From Verrucomicrobiota bacterium (GTDB lineage Bacteria; Verrucomicrobiota; Verrucomicrobiia; Limisphaerales; UBA9464), in assembly GCA_008933025.1 (NCBI GenBank), contig WBXI01000021.1, positions 1 through 32,185 of the forward strand: a stretch of 32,185 nt of DNA. The letters are read 5' to 3'. Shown here piece by piece: positions 451-23,757 of the stretch. Made by a program: the position numbers and the translations under genes. The number at the start of each line of letters is the position of its first letter. The stretch's first letter is position 1. Below the pieces are notes generated by a model that saw only the letters and a program-made list of their open reading frames with translations, had not been told where the DNA came from and searched no databases.

Positions 451-1419
451 CTAGGGCCGACAGGTTCCCAAGGGAAGCCCCCGGGCGATGCGGGCGAGCA
501 GTCCGAGCCAGACCTTGGGCGGGACCGTGAGCAGGATGACGCCGCCCACCACCAGGGCGCCCGCGGTGCGGACGCGCGGGCCCACGGATTCGCCGAGCAC
601 GAACGCGCCGAGCAGGACGGCGATGATGGGATTCACGTAGGCATAGGTGGACACCTGCGCCGACGTGCAATGGCGCAACAGGTAGACGTAGGCCGTGTAG
701 CCCACGAGCGACCCGAACAAGACCAGATAGACCAGGGCGAGCCACGCCGTGGCGGGGATTGCACCCGGGACAACCTGTCCGGCCTCGCCGCGGACGAGTC
801 CGACGAGGAGCATGGCAAGTCCGCCCGCCAACATCTGGGCCGCCACGCCCATCAAGGGCGAGGCGGGGCGCGCCGAGTGGCGCGCGTACACGGAGCCGCC
901 GGCCCAGCAAATGGTCGCGGCGAGCAACGCGAGGGACTGCGGCAGCGCAAGCGACGCGGTGTCCGCGGCATGGCCGGCGACGAGGGTGAACACGCCCGCA
1001 AACCCCAGCGCGATCCCGAGCCATGTCAACGGGTGCGGACGATTGCCGCCGGGACGCATCCACTCGAACACGGTGAACCACATCGGCGTGCTGGCAATGA
1101 AGAGTGCCGCCTGGCTGGAGTTGGCGGTTTGTTCCGCCCACACGACCAGTCCATTGCCGCCGAGCATGAGGAGGCATCCGACGATGGTGGCGTCGCGCCA
1201 TTGGCGGGTGGTGGGGGCCGCGTCGCCCCGCCGGAGGAGAAAAGGGAAGAGCAGGGCGGCGGAGAGGGCGAAGCGGGTGCCGCCCATCAGGAACGGGGGG
1301 ATGCCGGCGACGGCGACGCGGATCGCGAGGTAGGTGGAACCCCAGACGAGATAGACGGCGGCGAAGGCCAGCAGGACGCGGGCCCGCGACGCGGGCTTCT
1401 CGGTGTGGATTGGGCTCAT
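451..1419 (-). CDS. EamA/DMT-superfamily transporter
   Basis: Inner-membrane drug/metabolite transporter of 322 residues, a usual length for the ten-helix EamA type. The first helix carries [16 protein letters not shown] (about 18-33), characteristic of the YedA/RhaT-like branch. The protein is built of two EamA repeats, roughly 12-150 and 165-305. The second repeat contains the typical [20 protein letters not shown] and a [20 protein letters not shown] stretch. These exporters usually move amino acids, purines or small metabolites outward; the substrate cannot be read from sequence. It ends in TAG and is followed after 14 bases by the amidotransferase. Upstream lies a long gene-free stretch with a strong hairpin at 1463-1491. 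Confidence 0.92.
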
Positions 1420-2093
1420 CGGTGGCTTGCAGGGATTGCCGGTCGTCGTGGCGGGAAAGACGAAACCCGCCGGCCGAGGCTCGGCGGGTTTGGGGCAGTT
1501 TCCCGTCGGTGGATGGAACTACCGCGAAACCAGCCGCATCGGGCGGGCCCGGACAAGGGCCACGCCGGGACCCACGCGACGGTGCCATGCCACCGGGGCG
1601 ATCCGGGCGCCGGGTTGGTTGGAGGCATGGGAGGCCGTCATTTCGGGGCGACGATCGGGGCAAACGGGACGGCGAGTCAAACGGGGAGTGGTTGGACGAG
1701 GGACCCGTTCGGAAACTGTCCCCCGCGCGAAGCGCTTTCGGACTGCGGTGGCAAGGCCTTCGGAAGGCCGCGACACCGTTTTGAGACACGGCTTGTGCCC
1801 GGGGTGAGGCTGCGTGGCCGTGATGGTGTCGGGTGGCGCTCGTCGCCAAGTGGCGTGGCTGATGCTCCTTCCCGTCGCGTTCCGGAGCGCTTGCGCGCGG
1901 TCGGACCGCGGCGAGTGAATTCCGCGCAAGCGTCTACGGGTGACGCAGGGTTGTCGGAAGGGTCGAAAGCCCGGCATGCCGTGTACCAGCAGCCGGGAAA
2001 ACCATTCCCGCATGCCGGAATCCCGCGGGTGCCCGGGGACACGGCGGCCGGGACGTCGCCGTCGACGTGCGCGAGGCCCGTCCATGTCCGACG
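1420..2093. other. Gene-free, structure-rich intergenic stretch
   Basis: About 670 bases between the EamA start and the nrdJ terminator. Open frames here translate to Arg/Pro-rich sequence with no recognisable domain and are judged spurious. The DNA is unusually rich in short inverted repeats. They include ACCCGCCG/CGGCGGGT in 1463-1491, GCCTTCGGAAGGC around 1756-1768, nested GACACC/GGTGTC and CACGGC/GCCGTG pairs in 1771-1830, and CGCTTGCGCG (1888-1897) with CGCGCAAGCG (1923-1932). From memory, similar stretches recur between genes in Verrucomicrobiota, but no second copy was recognised in this window. It could be an intergenic repeat family, a structured RNA or decayed DNA. Confidence 0.5.
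1463..1491. other. Strong hairpin upstream of the EamA gene
   Basis: Perfect 10-bp arms AAACCCGCCG (1463-1472) and CGGCGGGTTT (1482-1491) enclose a nine-base loop. It lies 44 bases upstream of the EamA start on the minus strand. Read in that direction it ends in TTTCGTCTTT, so it could act as a weak terminator stopping read-through before eamA, or as a leader structure. No long uninterrupted T-run is present on either strand. Confidence 0.45.
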
Positions 2094-2124
2094 AAAAGGG
2101 GCCGGGTCTTGCGACCCGGCCCTT
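2094..2124 (-). terminator. Rho-independent terminator of nrdJ
   Basis: In the minus-strand direction a perfect 10-bp stem of GGGCCGGGTC and GACCCGGCCC, with a four-base loop, is followed by CTTTT (complement of AAAAG at 2094-2098). It begins about 30 bases after the nrdJ stop codon. Stem stability and the T-run together make this one of the clearest terminators in the window. Confidence 0.85.
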
Positions 2125-2154
2125 GCATGCACAACTCGGATGGAAGATGGCGGA

Positions 2155-5286
<3,132 letters not shown>

Positions 5287-5442
5287 GGCTTGGGTGGGTT
5301 TGGATCCTGAACTACGGGTGGCTTCCGGCCTTCGACGACCCCGATTGGTTCCCCAGAACCAACGAATCAATCCGCCGACCGAAAAACCGTGGAAAAATCG
5401 GACAAATCAAACGAACTAACGCGACCTTGGTTACCTCGTGTA

Positions 5443-5458
5443 ACCCCATCCATTGGGG
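5443..5458 (-). promoter_or_regulatory. Candidate NrdR box 2 (nrdJ-proximal)
   Basis: ACCCCATCCATTGGGG on the plus strand matches about 10 of 16 positions of the remembered NrdR consensus acaCwAtATaTwGtGt. It keeps the outer C and G positions and forms CCCCA/TGGGG arms. Alone it would be weak. Its start lies exactly 32 bp from the start of the better box at 5475, close to three helical turns, the usual arrangement for paired NrdR sites. Confidence 0.5.
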
Positions 5459-5474
5459 ACGGGGGAAGACGCTA

Positions 5475-5490
5475 CCACCATATGTTGTGG
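5475..5490 (-). promoter_or_regulatory. Candidate NrdR box 1
   Basis: Read on the minus strand, CCACAACATATGGTGG matches about 12 of 16 positions of the NrdR-box consensus, including the CAC...GTG arms and the central ATAT. NrdR is a zinc-finger/ATP-cone repressor of ribonucleotide reductase genes across bacteria. The site is about 190 bases upstream of the chosen nrdJ start and about 105 bases upstream of the alternative start at 5370. No nrdR gene is in the window. Confidence 0.62.
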
Positions 5491-5860
5491 CTACAAGGGT
5501 TTTGTGAGGGATTGTTGCGTTTGCGTTAAAGCGGGGGAAATTCGATGGGTCGTGTCCCTGTGGAGGGTCGAAAACCGGTCCATAAAGTCGCCGAAAACGG
5601 ACTCGGGGCGCGTGCTTGGACCGGGCTCGATGGGTGCGCCGCCATGGGGCATTCACTCCATCGCATCGCGATCCCGTTTTCCGAGTCATGGGAGGAAGCA
5701 ACCGGAGGCGAGACCCCGAGGCTTCGGGGCTCCCCGTGCGCGGTGTGGATTGGTTCGGAGCGACCACCTCGGCCGCCGCAAGGCTTTCGGGTGTCGCCGA
5801 AGCGGGAGGGTTATTGGCGGACCGGGAACTTCGACGGCGTCGTTCCGGTTGGTCGCGCCG

Positions 5861-8992: not shown

Positions 8993-11392
8993 TTACTTGT
9001 CCTCGGGTTTCGACGGCGTTTCGGCCGCGTGTCGCTTCCGTTCCTTCTTGTTGGCGTCGTTGACCTGCTTGTCCGCCTTGCGGCCTTCCTCGCGTTCGGC
9101 CTGCTCGAATTCGTTTTCGGCGACCCGCACGCCGGGGAGTCGGGCCCGCTCCTGATTGGCCATCGCGGCCGCCTCGATCGGCGTCGCGAGAATGGTGGGA
9201 CGCATCATCACCAAGAGTTCCGTCCGGCTGGCGTCTTTGGACTTGCTGGAGAAGAGCCCGCCGATCAGCGGGATGTCCATGAGGTAGGGGACGCCGGACT
9301 TCCCGCGCGTGATGCTCGAATTGATGTAGCTGCCGAGGATGATCGAGTCCTTGTTGCGCACGGTCACGGTCGACGTCGCCGACCGCGTCTGCGTGGTCGG
9401 GACCTTGTTGTTGTCGATGACAACCGGGGCGCCGAGTTGGTCGATCTGCTGGTTGATCTCCATCACCACGAGGTTGTCGGGCGTGATGAAGGGAATCACG
9501 TCGAGTCCGACGCCGACGAACTGGCGCTGGATCTGTGTGGAACTGCCGAAGCTGCCGCCGTTGTACGAACCGGTGATGAAAGGGACCTCGGAACCCACCT
9601 CGAAGCGTCCCGGAGTGGCGTGGGACGTGAGGACGCGGGGACGCTGGACGACATTGACGCGGCCGTCGGCCTGGATGGCGTTCACGGCCACGTCCCAGCT
9701 TTGGCCGAGTTGCGCGAAATAGTTGAATCCGGAGCCCGTGGGGAAGGCGCTGAGGGCATTGGTGGACGACGAGACGCCGCTGAGGAACTTTTGCCCGGTG
9801 CCGAGACCGTCGCCGCTGTTGTTGATGGTGCCTCCACCCTTGATGTTTGGATCCTTACTGAACTGTCGACCGGCCTGTCCGGCGGTGACGCCGAAGCTGA
9901 GCGAGTTGTTGAGCGACACCTCCATGATGATCGCCTCGATCAGGACCTGGGCGAGGAGGGTGTCGACCTTCTCGACGACCTCCTTGATCTTCTTCATCTC
10001 CTTCTTGCGGGCATAGACGATGAGGGAATTGGAGCGGAGATCGGGGGTGATGTTGGCGTTCTGGAGCAATTCGGCGAAGGCGCCGAGTCCGGCGCCGCCG
10101 GCACGGCCACTCCCGCCCAGACGCTGGCTGAACGTCGTCCCACCACCGGCAGTGGGCGTGGTGAGACGGGTCGGGGGCGCGGCTTGGTTGGGGGAGTAGG
10201 TGTTGTAGCCGGAACCCCCGTAGCCGCCGCCATACCCGCCGCCGTAGCCGGAACTGCCTCCCATTCCCGAACGGCCCATGCCACCGCCCCCGCGACGGGC
10301 TCCGCCGCCGCCGCTCCCTTGCGTGCCGAATCCGCCGGATCCGGTCCCCGAGCCCGCTCCAAGTCCACCGCCGCCCTGGCCGCTGATGACGCTCTGCAGG
10401 GTGGTATAGATGTCGGCGACCTTGCCGTACTTGATGGGAAGGACCTCGAGGAGGAAATCGTCGGCGTTCTCGACGTCGATCTTCGCGAGGACCTCGAGCA
10501 TGCGTTTCACGTTGATGGCGAAATCGCGGAGAATGAGCGTCTTGGAGGTCTCGAGGGTGACGATGCCGTTGGCGCCCTGGGCGCTGGCGAAGGTCTTGAC
10601 GAGGTCGGTCGCCTCCTTGGGATCGGCGAATTTGAGGGTGACCACGTGGGTCACGAACTGGGCGGCCTCGTTGTAGGCCGAGCCGGGAAGATCGCTGAAC
10701 CTGGCGCCCTGCTGGTTGGCTTGGGCCGAGGGCACGATCACCACGAAATTGTCGCCGGTGGGGATGGTGGTGATCTGGTTGAGGGCGAGGATGGTGTCGA
10801 GCGCCTGGATGGTTTGCTCGACGCTCAGGTCGGTCTCGGGGGAATAGGTGATCTGGGTGTTGACCGTGAGATTTTGGCCGCGGAGGACGGTCTTGCCGGT
10901 GAGATGGCCGTAGATCTCGAGAACCTGGCCGAGTTCCATGTTCTTGAACTTGACCGCGCCCACCATGGCTTCCGGGGTCTCGGCATTCTTGACGGCGGCG
11001 AGGGTGGCGTCGTTGGCCTCCTGTTCGGCGGTGGCCTGGGCGTTGGCGGCGGGCTTTTGTCCGCCCGGGGTCGAGATGCCGGGGCGACCCAGGACGCCGC
11101 CGGGGCCGGGAAGTCCGGGACGTGGGATCGGACCGGCCGCGGTTGGATTGGCCGGCGTGACGACGGGGCGGGGAAACGTGCGGGGAACGGCGACGCGATT
11201 GGTGGCCGGGGCGGGGGTGGCTGCGGTGGCCGCGGGCGAGGCGCCGGGTTTGCCGGGCGTCGGGATTGCCGCGGGCGAGGCGGCGGCGGGCTGGGTGCCG
11301 GCTGCGACCGGGTTGGCCGGCGTCTGGGCCATCGCGTCCGCGGCGGCGATGACGGCGGCGAGCCACAAAGGGGCAAGGGGATTCGGTTTCAC
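8993..11392 (-). CDS. gspD: Type II secretion / type IV pilus secretin
   Basis: Outer-membrane secretin forming the exit pore of a type II secretion or pilus system; 799 residues. The start is GTG at 11392, seven bases after the previous stop. A signal peptide (LAPLWLAAVIAAADAMA) is followed by a Pro/Ala-rich linker to about 110. N-domains follow: VKFKNMELGQVLEIYGHLTG and LKFADPKEATDLVKTFA are recognisable N1/N2-type repeats. A Gly-rich, low-complexity stretch at about 338-400 splits the N-domains. The secretin core begins near 470 (LIEAIIMEVSLNNSLSFGV). It includes RPRVLTSHATPGRFEVGSEVPF and the C-terminal VPYLMDIPLIGGLFSSK with TELLVMMRPTIL. The charged C-terminal tail (EEGRKADKQ...) may be an assembly signal. 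Last gene of the gspE-L-M-D operon. Confidence 0.93.
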   Translation of the reverse strand: MKPNPLAPLWLAAVIAAADAMAQTPANPVAAGTQPAAASPAAIPTPGKPGASPAATAATPAPATNRVAVPRTFPRPVVTPANPTAAGPIPRPGLPGPGGVLGRPGISTPGGQKPAANAQATAEQEANDATLAAVKNAETPEAMVGAVKFKNMELGQVLEIYGHLTGKTVLRGQNLTVNTQITYSPETDLSVEQTIQALDTILALNQITTIPTGDNFVVIVPSAQANQQGARFSDLPGSAYNEAAQFVTHVVTLKFADPKEATDLVKTFASAQGANGIVTLETSKTLILRDFAINVKRMLEVLAKIDVENADDFLLEVLPIKYGKVADIYTTLQSVISGQGGGGLGAGSGTGSGGFGTQGSGGGGARRGGGGMGRSGMGGSSGYGGGYGGGYGGSGYNTYSPNQAAPPTRLTTPTAGGGTTFSQRLGGSGRAGGAGLGAFAELLQNANITPDLRSNSLIVYARKKEMKKIKEVVEKVDTLLAQVLIEAIIMEVSLNNSLSFGVTAGQAGRQFSKDPNIKGGGTINNSGDGLGTGQKFLSGVSSSTNALSAFPTGSGFNYFAQLGQSWDVAVNAIQADGRVNVVQRPRVLTSHATPGRFEVGSEVPFITGSYNGGSFGSSTQIQRQFVGVGLDVIPFITPDNLVVMEINQQIDQLGAPVVIDNNKVPTTQTRSATSTVTVRNKDSIILGSYINSSITRGKSGVPYLMDIPLIGGLFSSKSKDASRTELLVMMRPTILATPIEAAAMANQERARLPGVRVAENEFEQAEREEGRKADKQVNDANKKERKRHAAETPSKPEDK

Positions 11393-11399
11393 GGCAAAG

Positions 11400-12062
11400 C
11401 TACTTCTTGGTCTTGTTGGTCGACACCGTGGGCGATGCCTTGGGTTGAACCACGGAACCCTGCAAAGGTTTCCGGGGAGGCGCCGACGCCGGGGGGGTGC
11501 GACGCGGGAAACTCGCCACGAGGGTGAGGGAACACGTCAACTTCGTCTGCGACGGGTCCAGCTTCAGGTTGTTCACGTCCCGGACCCGCACCATCGAGTC
11601 GCCGCTGCCCATCTGGTAAAGGAAATCCACCAACTCGCGCTCGCCCGCGACGACGTCGGCGGTGACTTGGTACTCCTCGAAAAACTGGTTGGTCTGGCTG
11701 TTCGCGCCGAGGCGGGCGGGCTGGGTGATGGGGATGAGCCGGTTCACCTGCACGCCGGTGGCGTTGGCGTTGGTGAGGATGGCGACCTGCAACCGGGTGG
11801 GGGCATCTTCCGGGGCCACCTGGGCGCCCTTGCTGCGCAGGCTGGCGAGGAGGGTGTTGTATTCGTTGGTCTTGGAAGTCTCCGCGGTGTAGCGGCCCTT
11901 CATCCGGTTCAACTCCTCCAGTTCCCGGTTGACCTTCGGCCAGTCCTGAAAGAAGGGCCAGACGATCCAATAATTCAGCAGGAGCGCGATGACCACGATC
12001 GCCGCGAGGACGAGTCGGCGTTCCTGCGGTGCCAGATTGAGGCGGTCGAACCAACGCGTCAT
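11400..12062 (-). CDS. GspM/PilO-like inner-membrane component of the secretion system
   Basis: 220 residues. After a short cytoplasmic segment (MTRWFDRLNLAPQERR) one transmembrane helix spans about 17-36 (LVLAAIVVIALLLNYWIVW). A coiled-coil-like stretch follows (about 37-80, WPKVNRELEELNRMKGR), then a small alpha/beta periplasmic domain, FFEEYQVTADVVAGERELVDFLYQM. This is the topology of PilO and GspM. The C-terminus is a proline/basic tail. The start ATG at 12062 overlaps the upstream stop as ATGA, so translation is probably coupled. The assignment rests on topology, size and position between a PilN/GspL-like gene and the secretin; primary-sequence conservation in this family is low. Confidence 0.82.
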   Translation of the reverse strand: MTRWFDRLNLAPQERRLVLAAIVVIALLLNYWIVWPFFQDWPKVNRELEELNRMKGRYTAETSKTNEYNTLLASLRSKGAQVAPEDAPTRLQVAILTNANATGVQVNRLIPITQPARLGANSQTNQFFEEYQVTADVVAGERELVDFLYQMGSGDSMVRVRDVNNLKLDPSQTKLTCSLTLVASFPRRTPPASAPPRKPLQGSVVQPKASPTVSTNKTKK

Positions 12063-13438
12063 GGGGCCTCCCCGACGTTGAGTTCCATCTCGAACGACCA
12101 ACCGACGTTGCCGCCGGGACGCGTGTCGATGCGCGGGGCGCGGACCTTCGAAAACAACGGCGTGTCCCGGACCATGACCTTGCCCAGGTCCGAGTTGAAC
12201 CGCAGGACGTCGCCCCGGGCCTGCTCGGCGGCGGTGCCGTCGATGCGCAGCGTGCGGCCCCGGATGAAATTGAGGGTCGAGAGCGTCATGGTTTCGGGCA
12301 ACCGGTCCACGACGGCCTTCCAGGAATCCAGTGCCGCGAAGCGCAGGTTGACCTGCTCCTGGAGCACCGCGACCTGCGCCTTGAGCGCGAGGGCATTGGT
12401 GTACTGCAAGGCCAGACCCTTCAGGTTGACCTTCTCGTCGTCCCGTTGGCTCTCGAGATAGGTCAGCCGGGCCATGTAGCCCAGGACCACGACGAGATAG
12501 AGGATGCCGATCGTGCCGAGCCCGCTCAACCAGAGGCGGTCGACGTATTTCTGGCGGTTGCGGGCGACGCGGGCGACGGGAACCAGGGACCCGGCGGTGC
12601 CCCGGAGTTGGCAGGCGGCGGTGCGGGCGGCGACTGCCTCGCGGCGGAGGCAGGGCAGGGTCTCGACCGGCTGCCCGCTCCATTCCTCGAGGGTGGGAAC
12701 CCACGCCAATGCCAGTGCCGCCGGCGAGACGATCCGCACGCGGGGCGTGTGGTCGAGCCAGCCGTCGAGTTCCGCTGCCCATGCCGTCTGGGTCAAAGTT
12801 TTCCCGAGGAAATCCGCGGCCGCGACGGGATCGGCCGGCAGGTGGAGGAGATCGACGCGACGCCAGCGGTCCCCGAGGTTCCATGCGGCGATGGCCACGT
12901 TCGGGGCAAGGTCCGGGTCGGCCAGCAACCAGAGTCCGTCGCCCTTGGCCACTTCGGCCAGTTCGCGCACCAGCGCCACCTCGAGGCGGTCGGTCACGAA
13001 GCCGTGTTCCTCGAGTTCGACGAGGCGGCGATCCACGTCCGAGTGCGGGGCGAGGACCACGATGACGGCGGTGGACGTGCTGCCGGCGGGGCCGAGGGGT
13101 TCGGCGCTCCAGGCGACCTGGTTGATCGGCAGCGGCGAAAGCTTCTCGAGTTGCAGTTCGACCATCGATGCCATCTCGGCGTGATCGGTGGTGGGAAGCT
13201 CGAGCAGGTGGAGAAACACCGAGGACGCGTCGAACCAGGCGACGTCGAGGCGGGGTCGGACGAGCTGTTGCCAATCCCGGACCCCGCTGCCCTTGGGGAC
13301 GGGGGCGCCGGGTTGGAGGACGACGGGAGCCTGCGGTTTCGGGGTGTCGCCGGCCGCGTCGAACGGCCAGAGGGTGGTTCCTTCCGCCCCGGTTGCCAGC
13401 ACCCGGCAAGTCTTGAAGCGCTTCGGGCGGTTGCTCAT
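12059..13438 (-). CDS. GspL/PilM-PilN-like inner-membrane assembly protein
   Basis: 459 residues. The first 290 form a cytoplasmic region with scattered features of an actin-like (PilM/GspL) fold, such as LDVAWFDASSVFLHLLELP and VELQLEKLSPLPINQVAW. One transmembrane helix at about 302-322 (LWLSGLGTIGILYLVVVLGY) is followed by a periplasmic coiled coil and a PilN-like domain with FAALDSWKAVVDRLPETMTLSTLNF. In known systems this part contacts the GspE ATPase inside and GspM/PilO outside, linking ATP hydrolysis to pilus assembly. The start ATG at 13438 overlaps the gspE stop as ATGA, and the stop overlaps the next start the same way. It may be a natural PilM-PilN fusion, as in GspL; no separate pilM is present. 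Confidence 0.83.
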   Translation of the reverse strand: MSNRPKRFKTCRVLATGAEGTTLWPFDAAGDTPKPQAPVVLQPGAPVPKGSGVRDWQQLVRPRLDVAWFDASSVFLHLLELPTTDHAEMASMVELQLEKLSPLPINQVAWSAEPLGPAGSTSTAVIVVLAPHSDVDRRLVELEEHGFVTDRLEVALVRELAEVAKGDGLWLLADPDLAPNVAIAAWNLGDRWRRVDLLHLPADPVAAADFLGKTLTQTAWAAELDGWLDHTPRVRIVSPAALALAWVPTLEEWSGQPVETLPCLRREAVAARTAACQLRGTAGSLVPVARVARNRQKYVDRLWLSGLGTIGILYLVVVLGYMARLTYLESQRDDEKVNLKGLALQYTNALALKAQVAVLQEQVNLRFAALDSWKAVVDRLPETMTLSTLNFIRGRTLRIDGTAAEQARGDVLRFNSDLGKVMVRDTPLFSKVRAPRIDTRPGGNVGWSFEMELNVGEAP

Positions 13439-15177
13439 TTGCCGGTCACCTTGTCGTCGCCGATCAGTCCCTTGACGTGTTCCTCGGTCTGGGTCACGCG
13501 CAGGACTTCCTCGATGGTGGTTTGCCCGAGCTTCACCTTGCGCCAGCCATCCTCGCGCAGCGTCCGCATGCCCTGCACCTTCGCCGTGTGTGCGATCGTC
13601 GTGGCCGGGGCGCGGTTCATGACGAGCGGCCGGATCGCCTCCGTCATCACCAGCAACTCGTGGATGCCGGTCCGCCCCTGGTAGCCGAGTTGCCGGCAGT
13701 CCTCGCAGCCCGTCCCCTTCCAGAAGGTCGCCGTCGCGATTTCCTTCGCCGGAAAGCCCACCTTGGCCAGGTATTCCGCGTCCACACGCTGCGGCGTCTT
13801 GCACGACGGGCAGATGGTGCGGACGAGCCGCTGGGCCATCACCGCCTCGAGCGAGGACGCCACGAGGAACGGTTCGATCCCCATGTCGATCAACCGGGTG
13901 AAGGCGCTCGGCGCGTCGTTGGTGTGCAGCGTGCTGAAGACCAGGTGGCCGGTGAGCGAGGCGCGGATCGCGATCTCCGCCGTCTCGAGGTCGCGGATTT
14001 CGCCGACCATGATCACGTTCGGGTCCTGGCGGAGGATGTGGCGCAGGCCCACCGCGAAGGTCAGGCCGATGTCCGAGCGCACCGGGATCTGGTTGATGCC
14101 CTTCAGTTCGTATTCGACGGGTTCCTCGATCGTGATGATCCGCTTGGTGACCGAGTTGATCGTCGAGAGAAACGCGTAGAGCGACGTCGATTTTCCCGAG
14201 CCGGTCGGGCCCGTCACGAGGAAGATCCCGTGCGGCTTCACGATGATGTCGCGGATCTGCGCTTCCTCCTCGCCGCCGAATCCCAGTCGGTCCAGGCCGA
14301 AGAAGATCTTTCCGCGGGTCAGCAACCGCAACGAGACCGACTCGCCCCAGACCGTCGGCACCGTCGAGACGCGGATGTCGATTTCCTCGCCCTTGATGCG
14401 GACGTTGATGCGTCCGTCCTGGGGCAGGCGTTTCTCGGCGATGTTCATCCCGCTCATCACCTTGATGCGCGAGATCAAGGCCGCCTGGTACCGCTTGATC
14501 TGCGGCGGCAACGGCGTCTGGTGCAGGATGCCGTCGATCCGGTACCGGATCCGCAGTTCGTCCTCGGACGGTTCGAAATGGATGTCCGTCGAACGGTCCT
14601 TGTACGCCTCCCAGATGACCTGGTTGACGAACTTGATGACCGAGGCGTCCTGATCGTCGCCGGTGATCTCGCGGTTGTCCGCGAGTTCGAGTTCGATCGG
14701 CTCGTCCTCGGACATCTCGTCGAGGGTCTCGGCGCCGACGCCGTAGTATTTCTTCAGCGCCTTCTCGATTTCCGAGCGGGGCGCGAGGCAGAACTCGACG
14801 GCGCCGCGGGCGTCGAACTGGACCGCGCTGAGCATGGAGGCGTCGAAGGGATCGCTGACCGCGACGCGCAGGACCCCGGCCTCCACCGACACGGGGATGA
14901 CCATGTGCTGGAACGCGACCTTGGTGGAAATGCGTTTGCGGACCTCGTTCTCGAGGGTGATGCCCTTCAATTCCACGAACGACCACCCCAGGGCCTGGCC
15001 CAGGCGCTGCAGGAAAGCGTCCTCGGCGAGGCCCGATTCCCGCGCGAAAAACGCGAGGCGTGGCTCCGTCGAGCCGTTCGCCGCGGCGGCACCCCAGGCC
15101 CGCGACCAGGTATCGATCTGGTCCGCGCTCCCGAGGTTCGCCTGCGCGAACACGGATTTCAGCGAAAGAAATGCCAT
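13435..15177 (-). CDS. gspE: Type II secretion / type IV pilus assembly ATPase
   Basis: Cytoplasmic hexameric ATPase driving pseudopilus or pilus assembly; 580 residues. The N-terminal GspE_N domain (about 40-150) precedes the ATPase core. Visible motifs are the linker SVIKFVNQVIWEAY, DRSTDIHFEP (195-203), and the Walker A sequence GPTGSGKS at 323-330. The Asp box with IITIEEPVEYEL follows, then Walker B VIMVGEIRD near 388-396 and the His box GHLVFSTLHTND near 410-421. A zinc-binding tetracysteine, CPSC...CEDC (456/459 and 491/494), is typical of GspE/PilB. ATG at 15177 has an upstream GAGGGG about ten bases away. First gene of the operon, divergent from dapB. Whether it belongs to secretion or pilus function is not decided by sequence; no gspF, gspG or twitching ATPase is nearby. 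Confidence 0.95.
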   Translation of the reverse strand: MAFLSLKSVFAQANLGSADQIDTWSRAWGAAAANGSTEPRLAFFARESGLAEDAFLQRLGQALGWSFVELKGITLENEVRKRISTKVAFQHMVIPVSVEAGVLRVAVSDPFDASMLSAVQFDARGAVEFCLAPRSEIEKALKKYYGVGAETLDEMSEDEPIELELADNREITGDDQDASVIKFVNQVIWEAYKDRSTDIHFEPSEDELRIRYRIDGILHQTPLPPQIKRYQAALISRIKVMSGMNIAEKRLPQDGRINVRIKGEEIDIRVSTVPTVWGESVSLRLLTRGKIFFGLDRLGFGGEEEAQIRDIIVKPHGIFLVTGPTGSGKSTSLYAFLSTINSVTKRIITIEEPVEYELKGINQIPVRSDIGLTFAVGLRHILRQDPNVIMVGEIRDLETAEIAIRASLTGHLVFSTLHTNDAPSAFTRLIDMGIEPFLVASSLEAVMAQRLVRTICPSCKTPQRVDAEYLAKVGFPAKEIATATFWKGTGCEDCRQLGYQGRTGIHELLVMTEAIRPLVMNRAPATTIAHTAKVQGMRTLREDGWRKVKLGQTTIEEVLRVTQTEEHVKGLIGDDKVTGK

Positions 15178-15339
15178 GACAATGGAACCCCTCGCGGTGG
15201 AACCGCGGGAGTCCCGGAAAGTTGCGCGGCGAGTGAAGTTTTTCCGGACGTCGATGCCAAGGGGAATCCCTCGGTTTCGGCGGGTCCCCGCAATTGGGGT
15301 TCGCCTCCGGCCCGCGATCCTGTTCAATCGTCCCCCGAC

Positions 15340-16074
15340 ATGACGCGCATCCTGATCAATGGTTCCAAGGGCCGCATGGGCCAAGCCCTCCTCGCCTGCG
15401 CCGCACGCATCCCGGCCATCGAGATCGTCGCCGGCGTGGACATGGGGGACGACCTCGCGGCGCCGCTGTCCCGCGCCGACGTGACGATCGATTTCACCCT
15501 GCACGAAGTGACCGCCGGCGTGGCCGAGCTCAGCGCCTCGCGGGGCAAGGCCCTGGTGATCGGCACGACGGGCCACAGCGAGGCCGAGAAGGCCTCGATC
15601 CGCGCCGCGGCGGCCCGCATACCCATCGTGTGGGCCTCGAACTACTCGACCGGGGTCAACACGCTGTTCTGGCTGACCCGAAAGGCAGCCGAGATCCTCG
15701 GGCCGGGTTTCGACCTCGAGGTGGTGGAGATGCACCACCGCCACAAGAAGGATGCCCCGAGCGGCACCGCGACGACGTTGCTCGAGATCCTGGCCGACGT
15801 CCGCAAGGTCCACCTCGCGGAAGCGCTGCGGCATGGGCGCCAGGGGATCACCGGCGCCCGCACGGAGACCGAGATCGGCATCCACGCCCTGCGCGGGGGC
15901 GACGTGGTGGGCGACCACACGGTGATGTTCGCCGCCGACGGCGAACGGGTGGAGTTGACCCACAAGGCGAGCAGCCGCGACACCTTCGCCAACGGCGCGC
16001 TGCGCGCCGCCCAGTGGGTCGTCGGTCGTCCGCCCGGCATCTACGACATGCAGGACGTCCTCGGGCTCAAGTGA
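15340..16074 (+). CDS. dapB: 4-hydroxy-tetrahydrodipicolinate reductase
   Basis: NAD(P)H-dependent reductase of the diaminopimelate/lysine pathway, cytosolic; 244 residues, normal length. The nucleotide-binding loop GSKGRMG is at 8-14. VIGTTGHSE lies at 73-81, and NYSTGVNTLFWLTRKAA marks the hinge. The substrate and catalytic signature HHRHKKDAPSGT spans 132-143. EIGIHALRGGDVVGDHTVMF (178-197) and the C-terminal GIYDMQDVLGLK complete the family pattern. No strong ribosome site is seen before ATG 15340. The stop TGA overlaps the GTG start of folK, so the two genes are cotranscribed and probably translationally coupled. The 162 bases upstream are shared with the divergent secretion operon. Confidence 0.97.
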   Translation: MTRILINGSKGRMGQALLACAARIPAIEIVAGVDMGDDLAAPLSRADVTIDFTLHEVTAGVAELSASRGKALVIGTTGHSEAEKASIRAAAARIPIVWASNYSTGVNTLFWLTRKAAEILGPGFDLEVVEMHHRHKKDAPSGTATTLLEILADVRKVHLAEALRHGRQGITGARTETEIGIHALRGGDVVGDHTVMFAADGERVELTHKASSRDTFANGALRAAQWVVGRPPGIYDMQDVLGLK

Positions 16075-16586
16075 GCGGGCCAGGACCAACCGCGCCGGTG
16101 GTGGTGTTGGTGGCCTTGGGCTCCAACCTCGGCGACCCGTCGGCACGGATCCGCGAGGCTTTCGACCGTCTGGAATCGTTGTCCGCGGTGCCGATCCTCC
16201 GGTCGTCGCACTGGAGTTCGACGCCGGTCGATTGCCCGCCGGGTTCGCCGATGTTCGTGAACGCGGCGGCGCGGCTCGAGGCACGGCCGGGCGACACGCC
16301 GGCATCCTTGCTCGCGGCGCTCCAGTCGATCGAGCGTGGGTTCGGCCGTCGGCCGAAACAGGTGGTCAACGAGGCGCGCCCGCTGGATCTGGACCTGATC
16401 GCGTGGGGTGGAGAGCGGGTGGCGACGGCGGAATTGACGGTGCCGCACCCGCGCGCGCACCTGCGACGGTTCGTGTTGGCGCCGTTGTCGGAAATCGCGC
16501 CGGACTTCGTCCTGCCAGGCCAAGGGGCGACCATCCGGGAACTGGCGGCGGGATTGGAATCCGGCGGGGAAGTGCGGCGCTTGTAG
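16071..16586 (+). CDS. folK: 2-amino-4-hydroxy-6-hydroxymethyldihydropteridine pyrophosphokinase
   Basis: Transfers pyrophosphate from ATP to the pterin precursor in folate synthesis; 171 residues. After a short N-terminus comes VALGSNLGDP (about 14-23), the start of the HPPK fold. Then follow SSHWSSTPVDCPPGSPMFVNAA, the ATP-contact region ERGFGRR, and the signature RPLDLDLIAWGG, which holds the Mg-binding Asp pair. PHPRAHLRRFVLAPLSEIAPDFVLP closes the family pattern. The start is GTG at 16071, overlapping the dapB stop (GTGA). Pairing of folK with a lysine/peptidoglycan gene is unusual but probably reflects housekeeping grouping. Ends in TAG; a perfect 7-bp hairpin at 16620-16636 follows. 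Confidence 0.95.
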   Translation: MSGPGPTAPVVVLVALGSNLGDPSARIREAFDRLESLSAVPILRSSHWSSTPVDCPPGSPMFVNAAARLEARPGDTPASLLAALQSIERGFGRRPKQVVNEARPLDLDLIAWGGERVATAELTVPHPRAHLRRFVLAPLSEIAPDFVLPGQGATIRELAAGLESGGEVRRL

Positions 16587-16906
16587 GCGGGGTCGCCGCG
16601 CCCGGCGGTTGTTGAGCGGGTTGCCCGCCGGGCAACGCATGCAAGGCGACCCGGAGGTTGGCCTCCCAGCCATCCCCAGACCGCCTCGCACCCGCGCGGC
16701 CATCCGCGCGGACCGGACTGCACCGAAACTTGCAGCCCGGGTGGGTTCCCCACCCTCGGGTCGGGCGGAAGCGCCCGATCGCCGCCACCTCCAGCGGCGT
16801 TGTGTGTCGGACCGGGCGCCCGCCTGGGGCAACCGATCCACCAACCAATCACGGAAGGTCCCGGGAAGAGTTGCAAAGAATCTTTGGAAGCCGTTCCCGG
16901 ATGGAA
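16587..16906. other. Gene-free, structure-rich intergenic stretch between folK and acs
   Basis: No coding sequence is supported here. Several hairpins occur. GTTGCCC/GGGCAAC with loop GCC (16620-16636) is a possible folK terminator lacking a T-run. GGTGG/CCACC within 16743-16762 and TCGGGCG/CGCCCGA within about 16759-16776 follow closely. The stretch resembles, by eye and from memory, GC-rich structured spacers common between genes in Verrucomicrobiota. No match to the other two gene-free stretches of this window was noticed. Confidence 0.45.
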
Positions 16907-16947
16907 AACGCCGGAAAACCCGGGAGTTCCCGTGGTTTTCCGGCGTT
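16907..16947 (-). terminator. Terminator hairpin of acs
   Basis: Perfect 14-bp arms AACGCCGGAAAACC (16907-16920) and GGTTTTCCGGCGTT (16934-16947), extended inside by a further partly paired CGGGA/TCCCG. The hairpin lies about 22 bases beyond the acs stop. On the minus strand it runs into TTTTCC, giving a short T-run. It also faces the end of folK and may stop transcription from both sides. Confidence 0.75.
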
Positions 16948-16969
16948 CGCCGACCCCGCGTCCCGCGGA

Positions 16970-18979
16970 CTATTCGTCCGGGTTCGACAATTTCGCCAAC
17001 ACCGAGAGGTCCTCGAGCGTGGTGGTGTCGCCCTTGATCTCCATGCCGCTGGCGATCTGCTTGAGCAGGCGGCGCATGATTTTGCCGGATCGGGTTTTCG
17101 GCAGGGCGTCGGCGAACCGGACGTCGTCGGGTTTCGCGACGGGCCCGATCTCCTTGCCCACGTGGTTGCGCAGTTCGTTCTTCAGGTCCTGCGTCGCGGC
17201 CTGTCCGGTCTTCAGGGTGACGAAGCACACCAGCGCCTGTCCCTTCAGTTCGTCCGGTCGTCCCACCACGGCGGCCTCCGCCACCGAGGGGTGGCTCACC
17301 AGCGCGCTCTCGACCTCCGCCGTCCCGATGCGGTGGCCGGCCACGTTGAGCACGTCGTCGATGCGTCCCACGATCCAGAAATACCCGTCCTCGTCCTGCC
17401 GGCAGCCGTCGCCCGTGAAATACGAGTGTTTCACCTCGCTCCAATAGGTTTCCTTGTAGCGCGCGGGGTCTCCCCAGATGCCCCGCAGCATCCACGGCCA
17501 TGGTTTGCGGACGACCAACTTGCCGCCGGTGTTCTTCGGCACCGGTTTGCCCGAGTCGTCCACGACTTCCGGCAGGATCCCGAAAAACGGCAGGGTCGCG
17601 GTGCCCGGCTTGGTGGGGGTCGCCCCCGGCAACGGCGTGATCATGATCGCGCCCGTTTCCGTCTGCCACCAGGTGTCCACGATCGGGCATCGCCCGCCCC
17701 CGACCACGTTGTGGTACCACATCCACGCCTCCGGATTGATGGGTTCGCCGACCGATCCCAGCAGTCGCAGCGAGGAGAGGTCGTGCTTTTTCACCCAGTC
17801 GTCGCCCCACTTCATGAAGGCGCGGATCGCGGTGGGGGCGGTGTAGAGGATGCTGACGCGGTACTTCTCGATGATGCGCCAGAACCGGTCGGGTTCCGGC
17901 CAGTTGGGCGCGCCCTCGTACATCACGCAGGTGGTGCCGTTGGCGAGCGGTCCGTACACGATGTAGCTGTGCCCGGTCACCCAACCCACGTCCGCGGTGC
18001 ACCAAAAGACGTCCTCGTCGCGCACGTCGAAGACGTACTTGTGGGTCATCTTCGCCCCGAGAAGATAGCCGGCCGTCGTGTGCAGGATGCCCTTGGGTTT
18101 CCCGGTGGACCCGCTGGTGTAGAGGATGAACAGGGGTGCTTCGGAATCGAGGGGCACCGCCGGGCAATTCGCGTCCACGTAGTCCAGTTCCCGGTGCCAC
18201 CAGAAATCGCGGCCCTCGGCGAGGTGGATCTCGTGGCCGGTCCGGCGCACCACGATGACCTTCTCGCAGGACTTGGCGGGACGATCGCCGTTCGCGTCGG
18301 TGATCGCGAGCGCCTCGTCGACGTTCTTCTTCAGCGCGACGATGGCGCCGCGACGGTAGCCGCCGTCGGAGGTGATGATCATCCGGGCGCCGGAATCCTG
18401 GACGCGGTCGGCGACGGATTGGGCGCTGAAACCGCCGAACACCACGCTGTGCACGGCACCGATGCGGGCGCAGGCGAGCATGGCCACGACGGCCTCCGGG
18501 ACCATGGGCAGGTAGATGATGATGCGGTCGCCGCGCTTGATGCCATGGCGCTTGAGGACGTTGGCGAAGCGGCAGACCTCGCGGTGGAGTTGGCGGAAGG
18601 TGAGGACGCGTTCCTCGCCGGCCCGGCCGTCGGTGGCGGGTTCGCCTTCCCAGATGATGGCGGCCTTGTTGGCGTGGGCGGTTTCCAGCCACTTGTCGAG
18701 GCAGTTGGCGGAGGCATTGAGTCGTCCGCCGACGAACCATTTGGCGAACGGTTCCTTCCACTGGAGGACCTTCGCGAACGGCTTTTGCCAGACCAATTCC
18801 GCCTTCGCCTGCTTCCGCCAGAAGGCATCCGGCTTGCGCACGGACTCGAGCCAGAGCTTGCGGTATTGGGCGAAGGTCTTGACGTGCGCGCGGGCCGAAA
18901 ACTCGGCGGCGGGCTTGAAAACACGTTTTTCCTGGAGCAGCGCCGAGATGTTGGCGCGCGGTGCTGGTTTTTTGCTCAT
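16970..18979 (-). CDS. acs: Acetyl-coenzyme A synthetase (AMP-forming)
   Basis: Activates acetate to acetyl-CoA through acetyl-AMP; 669 residues, close to the usual 650. Visible motifs are [20 protein letters not shown], the P-loop [11 protein letters not shown] (near 285), [20 protein letters not shown], and the acetate-pocket region [17 protein letters not shown] follows, then the hinge and C-terminal motifs [20 protein letters not shown] and [16 protein letters not shown]. The last contains the catalytic lysine (about 633), which in this family is inactivated by acetylation. ATG 18979 ([12 protein letters not shown]) is chosen because the frame upstream, although open for kilobases, runs antisense to the next gene. 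No ribosome site is obvious. Divergent from the cytochrome/DUF1549 gene; a strong terminator follows. Confidence 0.97.
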
Positions 18980-19105
18980 GTTCCGAAGTGAGACCGGGCG
19001 ACGTTGCGGAACGCGGCGTCCGGAGTCAACCGGGAGGCGGCCCGTCCATCCCGCGGAGTTCGGGGATTCCCGCGCGATCCCCTTTCGTGGCAGGTTTCCA
19101 TCCGG

Positions 19106-22100
19106 ATGTCCGCGTTGCATCGATGGTCGCGTTGCCTTGCGCCCGGCCTTTGGGCCGTCGCGCTGGCCGGACGCGTCGTTGCGGCACCGGAAGTCGCCCC
19201 CGGGGACGAGGCTTTTTTCGAGTCGCGGGTCCGTCCCGTCCTCGCGGAGCACTGCGCCGAATGCCATCTCGGCGGGAAGTCCAAGGGCGGGCTTCGGCTC
19301 GATTCCCGCGCATCGACGCTCGCCGGGGGCGACTCCGGGCCCGCGGCGATCCCGGGGGATGCCGACGCCAGCCGGTTGGTGCGCGCGATCCGCTACGGCG
19401 ATCCCGATCTCCGCATGCCGCCCCGGACCCGGCTTCCGCCCGACGCCATTGCCGCGCTCGAGGCATGGGTGCGGCGCGGTCTTCCGGACCCGCGGACCGC
19501 GGACGCCGCGTTGCCGACGGTATCGGCCGCCAAACCACCGGACGGCGCGGGCTCCCGAAAGCACTGGGCATTCCAACCCGTGCGGCGCATCGCCGCTCCC
19601 GCGGTGCACGGCGCGTCGGATCCGGTCGATGGCTTCTTGCTGGCCCGGTTGCAGGCGGCCGGACTCGGGTTCTCCTCCGCCGCGGACCGCCGGACCTGGA
19701 TCCGGCGGGTGACGATGGATTTGACCGGTCTTCCGGCGACCGAGGCGGCGGTGCACGCGTTCGCGTCCGACGAACGGCCCGATGCCCGCGAGCGTTGGGT
19801 CGATGCCTTGCTGTCGGATCCGGCCTACGGCGAGCGCTGGGGCCGTTGGTGGCTGGACGTGGCGCGGTACGCCGACACCAACGGTCAGGACGAGAACAAG
19901 GTGATGGCCAACGCGTGGCGTTACCGCGACTGGGTGGTGTCCGCGATGAACGCCGACCTGCCCATGGACCGGTTCCTGGTCGAGCAGTTGGCGGGCGATT
20001 TGTTGCCGACGGCAGGCGTCGACGAGCACGTGGCGGCGGCGCGCCGGACGGCGACCGGATTCCTCGTGCTGGGTCCGAAGCTGTTGGCCGAGCAGGACAA
20101 GCCGAAACTGGTGCTGGACGTAATCGACGAGCAGATCGACACGATCGGACGGTCGATGCTGGGTCTGACGCTGGGGTGCGCGCGGTGCCACGACCACAAG
20201 TTCGATCCCGTGTCGCAGCGCGAGTACTACGCGTTGGCGGGAATCTTCCGCAGCACCCGGACCATGGAGAACCTGGCCTTCGTCTCGAAGTTCAACGAGT
20301 GCGGGATCTCCACCCGCGCGGAACTCGAGGCGATCGCGGCGCATGCCGGGGAAGTGAAGGGCCTCGCGGCGCGTTTGGCGGCGGTGGAGCGCGAGGCCGA
20401 CGATGCCCTGCGGGCGTCCTGGAGCGGGGCCTTGCCCCGGGTCCTGGTTGCCCCGGACGACGCGTCGTTGCCCGCGGGCCTCCGCGAACGCGTCGCGGCC
20501 GCGCGCCGGGGCACGAACGCGTTGGCCTCGGCATTGCGCGGGCTCGCGGACGAACCCGACGCGCCGGCGACGGTGGCACGGTGGCAGGCGTCGTTGGCGT
20601 CGGACGGTCCGGTGCCGGGTTGGCGCGGGGCCGGGTTTGGCTGTCGCGCGACCAACGCGCTGGAGATCCCGGTTGCCCGCGAATCGGGGCCCCGTGACTG
20701 GACGCTGTCGGCCTGGGTGCGGATGGACGCGGTGGAGACGGGCGGGGACACCCGGCGGTGGTTGGTGAGCCGGGGCGCGAACGAATGGGAAGACGGACAC
20801 CTCGCCCTGGTGATCGACAAGGATCGGCCGGGGGCGCTCGCGAACGCGGGCGGTGGCCCGGAACACGTGGTGGCGGCGTTCGGAAAAGCCGGAATCCTGA
20901 AGGCGCGCGAATGGCGCCATCTCGCCGCCGTGTGCGACGCCCGGCACCTCCGGGTGTATCTCGACGGCACGGAGGTCGCCGCGGTGCCCATGCCCGGCCG
21001 GGTGCCCGCGGGCAAGGGTCCGTTCGTTCTCGGCCGGAGGCCCGACGGTTACATCGGATTCCGGGGTCGATTGGACTCGGTGCGTCTGGACCAAACCGGG
21101 TTGGCGGCGGAGGCGGTGGGCCGGTTGTAGCGCGGCGAAGCGTTGCCCGGCGCGCTGGTGGAACTTGATTTCGACGGGTTGTCGGACGCCGGAAAGCGGC
21201 GTTTGGCGGACCGCGTGGCGGCGGAGGCGATCTGGGAACCGGGCGGATTGCTCGAATTGCCGGTGGGCGCGGAACGGCGCGCGCTGTACCCGCCGGGCCC
21301 GCGGGCCCGGGTCGGGGAAATGGACGCGGCCCTCTCGCTGCTGAAAGCCCGGGCCCCGGCGCCGGCGGCGCGGGCGCTCGCGGTGTCGGACGACGTGGTG
21401 ACGAACCTTCCCGTGCTGGCGCGGGGCTCGCATCTCAACCCGGGCAAGGAAGCGGTACCGCGCGGATTCCCGGCCTGCGCCGGCCCGGTGCCGGTTCGGC
21501 CGCCCACGGCGGGCCAGAGCGGTCGCCTCGAGTTGGCACGGTGGATCGTGGATCCGTCGAACCCACTCACGGCACGGGTGCTCGCGAACCGTGTCTGGCA
21601 GGCCCACTTCGGCGAGGGCTTGGTCCGGACGCCCGACAACTTCGGCCTGCGCGGCGACGCGCCGTCGCATCCGGAATTGCTGGATTGGCTGGCGTCGGAA
21701 TGGATCCGGACGGGCTGGAGCCTGAAGGCGCTGCACCGGCGGATCGTGCTGACGCGGGCGTATGGGCAGAGCTCGGTCGCGTCGGAGCCGGGGTCGGATC
21801 CGGAGAACCGGTTGCTCCACGCGTACCCGCGGCAACGGCTCGAGGCGGAGATGCTGCGGGACGCGCTGATGGCGGTGGGCGGCCGGTTGGAGCGGACGCT
21901 GGGCGGGACGTTGGTGGCATGGAAGAACGACGAGTACACGCCGGCGGACGACGCGCCGTTCCGATCGCCGAGGCGCGCGTTGTACCTGCCGTTGGTGCGG
22001 GACCGGGGGATCGACCTGTTCGCGGCGTTCGACGGGGCGAATCCGAGCGTCTCGGTGGCGCGTCGCGGCAGCACGGTGGTGAGCCCGCAGGCGTTGTACC

Positions 22101-22348
22101 TGATGAACTCGCCGGTGATGCGCGAGGCGGCGGAAGGCGTGGCGTCGCGGGTCCTGGCCCACGAAGCCCCCGCACGGACGGGCCGACTCTACGGGATCGT
22201 GCTGGCCCGGCCGCCCCGGGCCGCGGAGGAAGAGCGGGCCCGGCGGTTCCTCGCGGACGGGCGGTTGGCGGCGCTCGACGAAAAACAGCGGTGGACGGCG
22301 CTGGCGCAGGCGTTGTTGGCTTCGAACGAATTCACCCACCGCGAATGA
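19106..22348 (+). pseudogene. PSCyt1/DUF1549/LamG/DUF1553 protein interrupted by one in-frame TAG
   Basis: Would encode a 1080-residue secreted planctomycete-type cytochrome protein. It is broken by TAG at 21128-21130 with no frame change. Upstream part (674 residues): signal peptide ([17 protein letters not shown]), then a PSCyt1 domain with heme motif CAECH at 50-54. DUF1549 (about 173-385) carries a second CARCH near 357-361, followed by [20 protein letters not shown] LamG-like domain spans about 540-674. Downstream part: DUF1553, with [58 protein letters not shown] and a C-terminal [11 protein letters not shown]. The reading continues smoothly across the TAG (AVGRL stop [11 protein letters not shown]), so one nonsense change or sequencing error is the simplest view. 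A TTG at 21143 could restart translation. The end overlaps the DUF1501 start as ATGA. Biochemical role is not established. Confidence 0.88.
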
Positions 22349-23757
22349 ACCGCCGGAATCCATGGACGGCCCCGGGGACCCGCCGCGCGATGCTGCGCGA
22401 CACGGCGCTCGGGTTCGGGCAACTCGCGCTGGCGACGCTGATGGCGGGACGGGCGATGTCCGCCCCGCCGTCCCCGTTGGCGGGACATCCGCCGCATTTC
22501 GCGCCGCGGGCGCGGCGGATCATCTTCCTCTTCATGCACGGCGGGCCGTCGCACGTGGACACCTTCGACCACAAGCCGCTGCTGGAACGCGACACCGGCA
22601 AGCCGCTGCCGTTCGCGAAGCCGCGCGTGCAGTTCGCGAAGACCGGCAACCTGCGGCGGTCGCCTTGGGAATTCCGGCGCCGCGGGCAGAGCGGCGCGAC
22701 GGTGAGCGAGTTGTTCCCGCTGGTGGGCGGGTGCGCGGACGACCTGTGCTTCCTCAAGGCGGTGCACGGGACCAACGAGGCGCACGGCGGCGCGCTGCTC
22801 AAACTCCACACCGGATCCGACGTGTCGGTGCGGCCCAGCATGGGTTCGTGGATCTCCTATGGACTGGGCACCGAGAACGCCAACTTGCCGTCGTTCCTCA
22901 CCATCAATCCCACGCTGGGCCACGGCGGCGTGGGCAACTGGTCGAGCGCCTTCCTCCCGGCGGCGCACCAGGGAACGCCGCTGGGCGCCAGCGGCATCCC
23001 GGTGGAACGCGCCACCATCGCCAATCTCAAGGGCGCGTGGGATCCCGAGGTCCAGCGCGCGCAACTCGACCTGCTCGGCGAATCGCAACGCGACCACCTC
23101 GCCCTGGCCGGGCACGACCCGGCCCTGGAGGCGCGGATCCAGTCCTTCGAACTCGCGTTCCGGATGCAGACCGAGGCGCCGGAAATCCTCGGGTTGGACG
23201 GCGAAACCGAGGCGACCCGACGCCTCTACGGTCTCGACGATCCGAGGACGGCGTCGTTCGCGCGGCAATGCCTGCTGGCACGGCGGTTCAGCGAGCGCGG
23301 CGTGCGGTTCGTGCAGGCGTCGCACGGTTACTGGGACCAGCACGAGGACCTTACCCGGGACCACGGGCGGCTGGCGGGCGAGGTGGACCGGCCGATCGCG
23401 GGATTGCTGCGGGACCTGAAGGCACGGGGACTCCTCGACGAGACGCTGGTGCTTTGGGGCGGGGAATTCGGACGCACGCCGACGGGACAGGGCACGGACG
23501 GGCGCGACCACCATCCGCATGCGTTCACGATGTGGATGGCCGGCGGCGGGGTGCGGCCGGGGATGAGTTTCGGGCAGACGGACGACTACGGGTTCTACGG
23601 GGTGGCGGACAAGGTGCATGTGCACGACCTGCACGCGACGATCCTCGCGTTGCTCGGGCTCGACCACGAGCGGTTGACCTACCGCCACGCGGGCCGTGAT
23701 TACCGCCTGACCGACGTCGCGGGCCGCGTGGTGCGCGAGATCATGCGCGACGCGTGA
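22345..23757 (+). CDS. DUF1501 family protein with Tat-like signal
   Basis: 470 residues. The N-terminus [18 protein letters not shown] looks like a twin-arginine signal (RR followed by a hydrophobic stretch), implying export of a folded protein. [18 protein letters not shown] (about 61-78) is the hallmark of DUF1501, which has an alkaline-phosphatase/sulfatase-like fold. Later motifs are [48 protein letters not shown] and [33 protein letters not shown]. Their His/Asp residues suggest a metal site (inference). The gene overlaps the DUF1553 gene by ATGA; the DUF1553-DUF1501 pair is one of the commonest gene pairs in Planctomycetota and Verrucomicrobiota. The substrate is unknown. It is intact, although its partner is interrupted. 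Confidence 0.94.

Follow-up and report, generated by a model that had tools for sequence, protein, structure and literature searches.

Results

A class II ribonucleotide reductase gene preceded by paired palindromes

The window analysed here, the whole 32,185-nucleotide stretch of contig WBXI01000021.1 from a Verrucomicrobiota bacterium, carries on its reverse strand a gene, nrdJ, for a class II (adenosylcobalamin-dependent) ribonucleotide reductase (RNR). The product exceeds the cut-offs of two NCBIfam models, PRK06556 (1296 bits, cut-off 859) and TIGR02504 (536.6 bits, cut-off 400), which identifies it as a class II RNR (NrdJ). The genome to which the window belongs (G000, 4.47 Mb) is 86% complete, and in this 86% neither a class I beta reductase nor a class III reductase (NRDD) gave a match; nrdJ is the sole ribonucleotide reductase gene found there. 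The nearest named relatives are Verrucomicrobia MAGs, several of them labelled subdivision 3, Pedosphaera or Limisphaerales. The features of the nrdJ locus are:

2155..5286, reverse strand: nrdJ, class II (adenosylcobalamin-dependent) ribonucleotide reductase, ATG at 5284-5286 (from translation and family models)
5443..5458, reverse strand: predicted NrdR box 2 (downstream), ACCCCATCCATTGGGG on the forward strand and CCCCAATGGATGGGGT on the sense strand
5459..5474, no strand: 16-bp linker between the boxes (from sequence)
5469..5474, reverse strand: -10-like TAGCGT, directly downstream of box 1 (inferred promoter, TAnnnT pattern)
5475..5490, reverse strand: predicted NrdR box 1 (upstream, stronger), CCACCATATGTTGTGG on the forward strand and CCACAACATATGGTGG on the nrdJ sense strand
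5491..5496, reverse strand: -35-like TTGTAG, directly upstream of box 1 (from sequence and the conserved TTG)

An initial annotation had noted two NrdR-like palindromes 32 bp apart in a comparatively AT-rich part of the nrdJ upstream region, with about 12 and about 10 of 16 consensus positions matched, and had read them as placing class II reductase under NrdR repression; as checks it had named a matrix scan, paired boxes in relatives and an nrdR gene elsewhere in the genome. The observed features are confirmed. The two 16-bp palindromes, at 5443-5458 and 5475-5490, have starts and centres 32 bp apart and a 16-bp spacer, and as a pair they fit the NrdR box. The consensus of this box is ACACWATATATWGTGT, and boxes of identical sequence in a related locus (L032) match it at 12 of 16 and 10 of 16 positions. 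The 150 bp around the boxes have a GC content of 48%, against 68% for the window, and only 0.01% of 150-bp windows are lower. Both boxes contain C4 and G13, nine positions apart.

Several other features of the window were recorded in passing. A 1546-aa open frame without a Pfam match runs antisense to nrdJ (670-5310, forward strand) and is likely a GC-rich mirror frame of that gene. Genes for a secretin and a type II/IV secretion ATPase lie at 8993-22363 on the reverse strand, where a 1797-aa frame (16970-22363) has an acetyl-CoA synthetase-like domain in its C-terminal third. Control of nrdJ by a cobalamin riboswitch was considered and rejected: at gathering scores the window contains no Rfam match, to such an element or to any other.

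The boxes overlap a conserved putative promoter

Read along the sense strand, TTGTAG is followed by CCACAACATATGGTGG, TAGCGT... and CCCCAATGGATGGGGT, after which come 156 bp to the nrdJ ATG. A sigma-70 consensus scan found no promoter, and we read the -35 and -10 elements from conservation across tandem sites. Among 55 such sites, TTG at the -35 place is conserved as T in 51, T in 44 and G in 42, and TAnnnT at the -10 place as T in 38, A in 47 and T in 50. With TTG mostly before box 1 and TAnnnT mostly after it, box 1 would form the 16-bp spacer between -35 and -10, and the overlap of the operator with the polymerase site upstream of this RNR gene is thus read from the conserved hexamers. Box 2 would cover roughly +4 to +19, immediately beyond the expected start. 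A box in the -35/-10 spacer and another past the expected start make a geometry that fits repression. The 16-bp spacer also lies within the 14-17 bp rule, under which box centres are an integer number of helical turns apart (PMC12051234).

The nrdJ pair stands out from the rest of the genome

A strict tandem pattern (boxes 14-17 bp apart), partly shaped on the window's own nrdJ site, matches once in the 4.47 Mb of G000, at the nrdJ pair, and its reversed version matches nowhere. Given how the pattern was made, we take as independent evidence the scans with an E. coli-only and a held-out matrix, together with conservation. When three mismatches were allowed, the own genome gave four sites against two for the reversed control, so single sites at this stringency mean little.

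The E. coli-only matrix was built from six boxes of E. coli K-12 (nrdA, nrdH, nrdD). By this matrix the box at 5475 is the top-ranked 16-mer of the window, and 5443/5475 is the top-ranked of the window pairs spaced 20-60; the box at 5443 taken singly is weak, at rank 21. In E. coli K-12 itself the best pairs at nrdA, nrdH and nrdD have a spacing of 31; at nrdA this pair ties with another, spaced 32, in which the strong box is the same. The held-out matrix was trained on 48 nrdJ sites from relatives, with the window's own genus excluded. It gives the 5443/5475 pair 35.3 bits, whereas the best pair sharing neither box reaches 1.9, so the site lies far above background. Box 1 ranks first in the window by this matrix, and box 2 (14.7 bits) third. 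Elsewhere in the window, a lone box-like 16-mer of 13.9 bits at 26492, with no strong partner at 30-33, falls inside the 5' part of an ftsK frame (23837-26674).

Paired boxes are conserved upstream of nrdJ

Next to the single genome we searched a set of 39 related genomes, own genome included, from 24 genera; all genomes searched are MAGs of one order and do not count as independent samples. Of the 39 genomes, 15 match the strict pattern, at 17 sites in all, and none matches it reversed. All 17 lie upstream of their targets: 14 before nrdJ, 1 before nrdR and 2 before smc. Across 196 genomes of the order, several of which are also in the 39-genome set, it gives 22 sites in 21 genomes and none for the control (17 at nrdJ, 1 at nrdR, 1 at class I nrdB, 1 at gyrB and 2 without a clear target).

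We then scored nrdJ loci directly. There were 81 (80 named loci plus the window), and 79 had enough upstream DNA, L041 and L077 having none and being excluded before counting. In 70 of these 79 regions a pair reaches a score of 20 of 24 or more, and 57 of the 70 strong pairs are spaced 31-34, in agreement with the conservation in relatives that the initial annotation had looked to; shuffled regions yield 4.25 such pairs per 79 at any spacing. A matrix trained on 55 of the same nrdJ regions finds pairs above 10 bits at 75 of 78 named loci, and two in the remaining 713 kb. Of those two, the one at -601 in L108 may be the nrdJ site of its locus, falling a little beyond the 500-bp limit. C4, A6 and G13 are invariant in both boxes of all 55 tandem sites.

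The genome encodes an NrdR with conserved DNA-contacting residues

The nrdR gene that the initial reading called for is present in the own genome. It encodes a 171-aa protein with a Zn ribbon and an ATP cone that matches solved NrdR structures with E values from 2e-41 to 8e-39. In the Streptomyces coelicolor protein the residues reported at DNA are R12, D15, R17, R26-29 and R37 (PMC9110341), and all are present at identical numbers in the own-genome NrdR. Within the related set nrdR was found in 36 of 39 genomes. It had no match in G005, G022 and G034, two of which keep the nrdJ boxes, and we attribute these absences to missing contigs or assembly gaps, which are the probable cause. The own-genome nrdR and nrdJ are on separate contigs, and a pair stands before each. 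Class I beta is found in 5 of 39 genomes.

Scores, conservation, the presence of nrdR and promoter geometry together support the predicted repression of class II reductase by NrdR. The earlier reading is nonetheless incomplete: nrdJ is just one of several genes in the lineage with such sites.

Predicted NrdR operators also precede nrdR, smc and gyrB

With a matrix trained on nrdJ sites only, we scanned sets of nrdR, smc, gyrB and parE genes. Paired boxes 31-33 bp apart also occur upstream of nrdR, smc and gyrB in Verrucomicrobiota subdivision 3. At nrdR, 28 of 31 loci score above 10 bits, against a maximum of 4.6 in 155 shuffles, and the pairs follow directly after TTGAC, mostly about 60 bp before the start.

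At smc, 36 of 39 regions have a pair (shuffles, 0 of 390), the 39 including the 44-bp region of G022, which is too short to score. The best spacing is 31-33 in 34 of 39, although 17-80 was permitted. For most genomes the box positions are roughly -94 and -62, which mostly places them upstream of the inferred -35, from where they may either repress or activate. In G012, G013, G019 and G033 both boxes have moved on by one 32-bp step, to roughly -64 and -32, with the spacing kept, and in G028 all three box positions are occupied. Such a shift of register at constant spacing is what a tetramer needing two phased boxes would allow.

Pairs above 10 bits were found at 29 of 38 gyrB loci (L246, L247, L250, L253-L255, L258-L261, L263; L266-L302), and 9 of the 38 regions have none. 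The parE genes serve as a natural control: a pair occurs in 1 of 9 regions, a tenth (L306) having been left out for want of an anchor, and shuffles of the gyrB and parE sets together give 1 in 470.

A looser pattern, with two mismatches and a fixed 16-bp linker, gives at least 84 sites against at least 17 for its reversed form. From among the matches listed we took 20 sites, excluding those at nrdJ, nrdR, smc and class I nrd genes, and their targets are gyrB (11), a parE-like gene (1, L251, upstream), a PIN/PhoH-like frame (2) and no clear gene (6). Pattern sites without a clear target are L199, L211, L248, L249, L252, L262, L264 and L265. In L252 (G028:C179:7303-7350) a strong pair of 20.2 and 14.1 bits has no clear gene start nearby. 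In L256 and L257, from two genera, tandem sites precede a PIN/PhoH-like reading frame that was recognised by eye only.

Around class I nrdB, pairs are present in 2 of 5 relatives (L145, L146) and absent from the other 3, where the loci scanned may not reach the operon promoter; G029 has a site upstream of an nrdA-like gene.

The own-genome pairs score 16.1 bits at nrdR (17.9 and -1.7; one poor box) and 19.7 bits at smc (2.7 and 17.1; one degraded box), and a search of the assembly, which is 86% complete, gave no gyrB. The smc region concerned is:

G000:C29, just before 25432: own-genome smc upstream region

With one poor or degraded box each at nrdR and smc, and gyrB missing, nrdJ is the strong target here, and the wider regulon rests mainly on the relatives.

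Discussion

A predicted NrdR operator at nrdJ

The two palindromes very probably form an NrdR operator over the nrdJ core promoter. A chance match in an AT-richer stretch would be helped by a locus that is AT-rich for its genome and by a consensus that is itself AT-rich in the middle. Chance, however, would have to explain a site unique in the genome, a fixed spacing conserved in relatives, and shuffles and a reversed pattern that fail to reproduce the pair; we give this explanation next to no weight. A real tandem operator serving a different regulator, one whose palindrome and spacing resemble those of NrdR, would be in keeping with boxes GC-richer than those of E. coli, and among the genomes of the set there is no clear case in which nrdR and the boxes are both missing, a combination that would have tied the two together. 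Against another regulator, the NrdR site as published has this form, two 16-bp palindromes separated by 15-16 bp (PMC12051234), the E. coli-only matrix picks out the window site, and nrdR itself and, in part, class I nrd loci carry sites. We regard such a regulator as improbable.

That NrdR controls nrdJ and nrdR only, with coincidental or vestigial boxes at smc and gyrB, deserves rather more consideration and is still unlikely in our judgement. In its favour, the smc site of the own genome has one degraded box, the assembly lacks gyrB, and 9 of 38 gyrB regions lack a pair above 10 bits. Boxes at fixed positions in 36 of 39 smc regions speak against it, as do the move of the smc register by one 32-bp step in G012, G013, G019 and G033 with spacing kept, and the contrast between gyrB (29/38) and parE (1/9). 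We favour the broader reading: NrdR of subdivision 3 is probably not RNR-specific and heads a small predicted replication regulon. Its members would be nrdJ, nrdR, smc and gyrB, joined in some of the genomes that have it by class I nrd, and each would carry paired boxes three turns apart.

NrdR would bind at nrdJ and repress the gene, switching with its nucleotide as judged from solved homologues. A rise in dATP would let an ATP/dATP-loaded NrdR tetramer bind both boxes, three helical turns apart; the bound tetramer would kink the DNA and stand in the way of RNA polymerase, so that dNTP synthesis is shut off, and a fall in dATP would release NrdR from the operator. Since similar predicted operators precede nrdR, smc and gyrB, NrdR probably couples dNTP state to chromosome folding and supercoiling as well, a part of the reading that is less certain than the operator at nrdJ, and the ATP/dATP ratio would set dNTP synthesis, folding and supercoiling together.

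Relation to known NrdR systems

Control of class II RNR by NrdR is already known from Streptomyces and Pseudomonas. The published NrdR site consists of two 16-bp palindromes, with a gap of 15-16 bp in three of the four species examined (PMC12051234), and each box has a conserved C and, nine positions on, a conserved G (PMC9110341). The closest parallel is S. coelicolor, where the NrdR tetramer was shown on the nrdRJ promoter and the nrdRJ and nrdAB operators are likewise paired palindromes about three turns apart over the polymerase site, at a class II RNR operon in the case of nrdRJ (PMC9110341). The likeness extends to the C and G nine apart per box and to R12, D15, R17, R26-29 and R37 of NrdR. 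In contrast, nrdR and nrdJ here lie on separate contigs with a pair each, the spacing is mostly 32 rather than 31, and relatives add pairs at smc and gyrB.

In Pseudomonas aeruginosa NrdR acts on nrdJ, also through two boxes, and the topoisomerase gene topA is a non-RNR target; topA has one box and a reportedly activating effect (PMC4409342), whereas smc and gyrB of the relatives here have pairs. Listeria and E. coli sites have spacers of 15-16 bp, against 16 here, and RNR operons are the targets given for them, whereas relatives here also have smc and gyrB (PMC12051234). NrdR of the PVC superphylum is mentioned in PMC4989314, and topoisomerase levels in PMC4898720.

NrdR appears RNR-specific according to the introduction of PMC12051234 and the abstract of PMC9110341, so a regulon with SMC and gyrase would be new. 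Among the titles and abstract openings searched, a coverage that leaves most subscription journals outside, none claimed NrdR control of smc or gyrB. If the predicted regulon is real, the reported effect of NrdR on P. aeruginosa topA (PMC4409342) would gain a wider, testable frame. A dNTP-sensing repressor would then coordinate DNA supply and chromosome architecture, in a lineage where the one reductase found is B12-dependent and seems to be controlled by NrdR.

DnaA boxes near the predicted operators

The sequence TTATNCACA, which we take to be the DnaA box, recurs beside these sites. Upstream of smc, 26 of 39 genomes have a perfect TTATNCACA at a distance of no more than 250 bp (shuffles, 5 of 780), and in 19 cases, such as L166 and L172, a DnaA box (TTATTCACA) falls inside the linker between the two smc NrdR boxes. 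With the smc operator often enclosing a DnaA box, the replication initiator and the dNTP sensor would meet at one site. TTATNCACA is also present in 14 of 79 nrdJ regions, compared with about 1% of shuffles.
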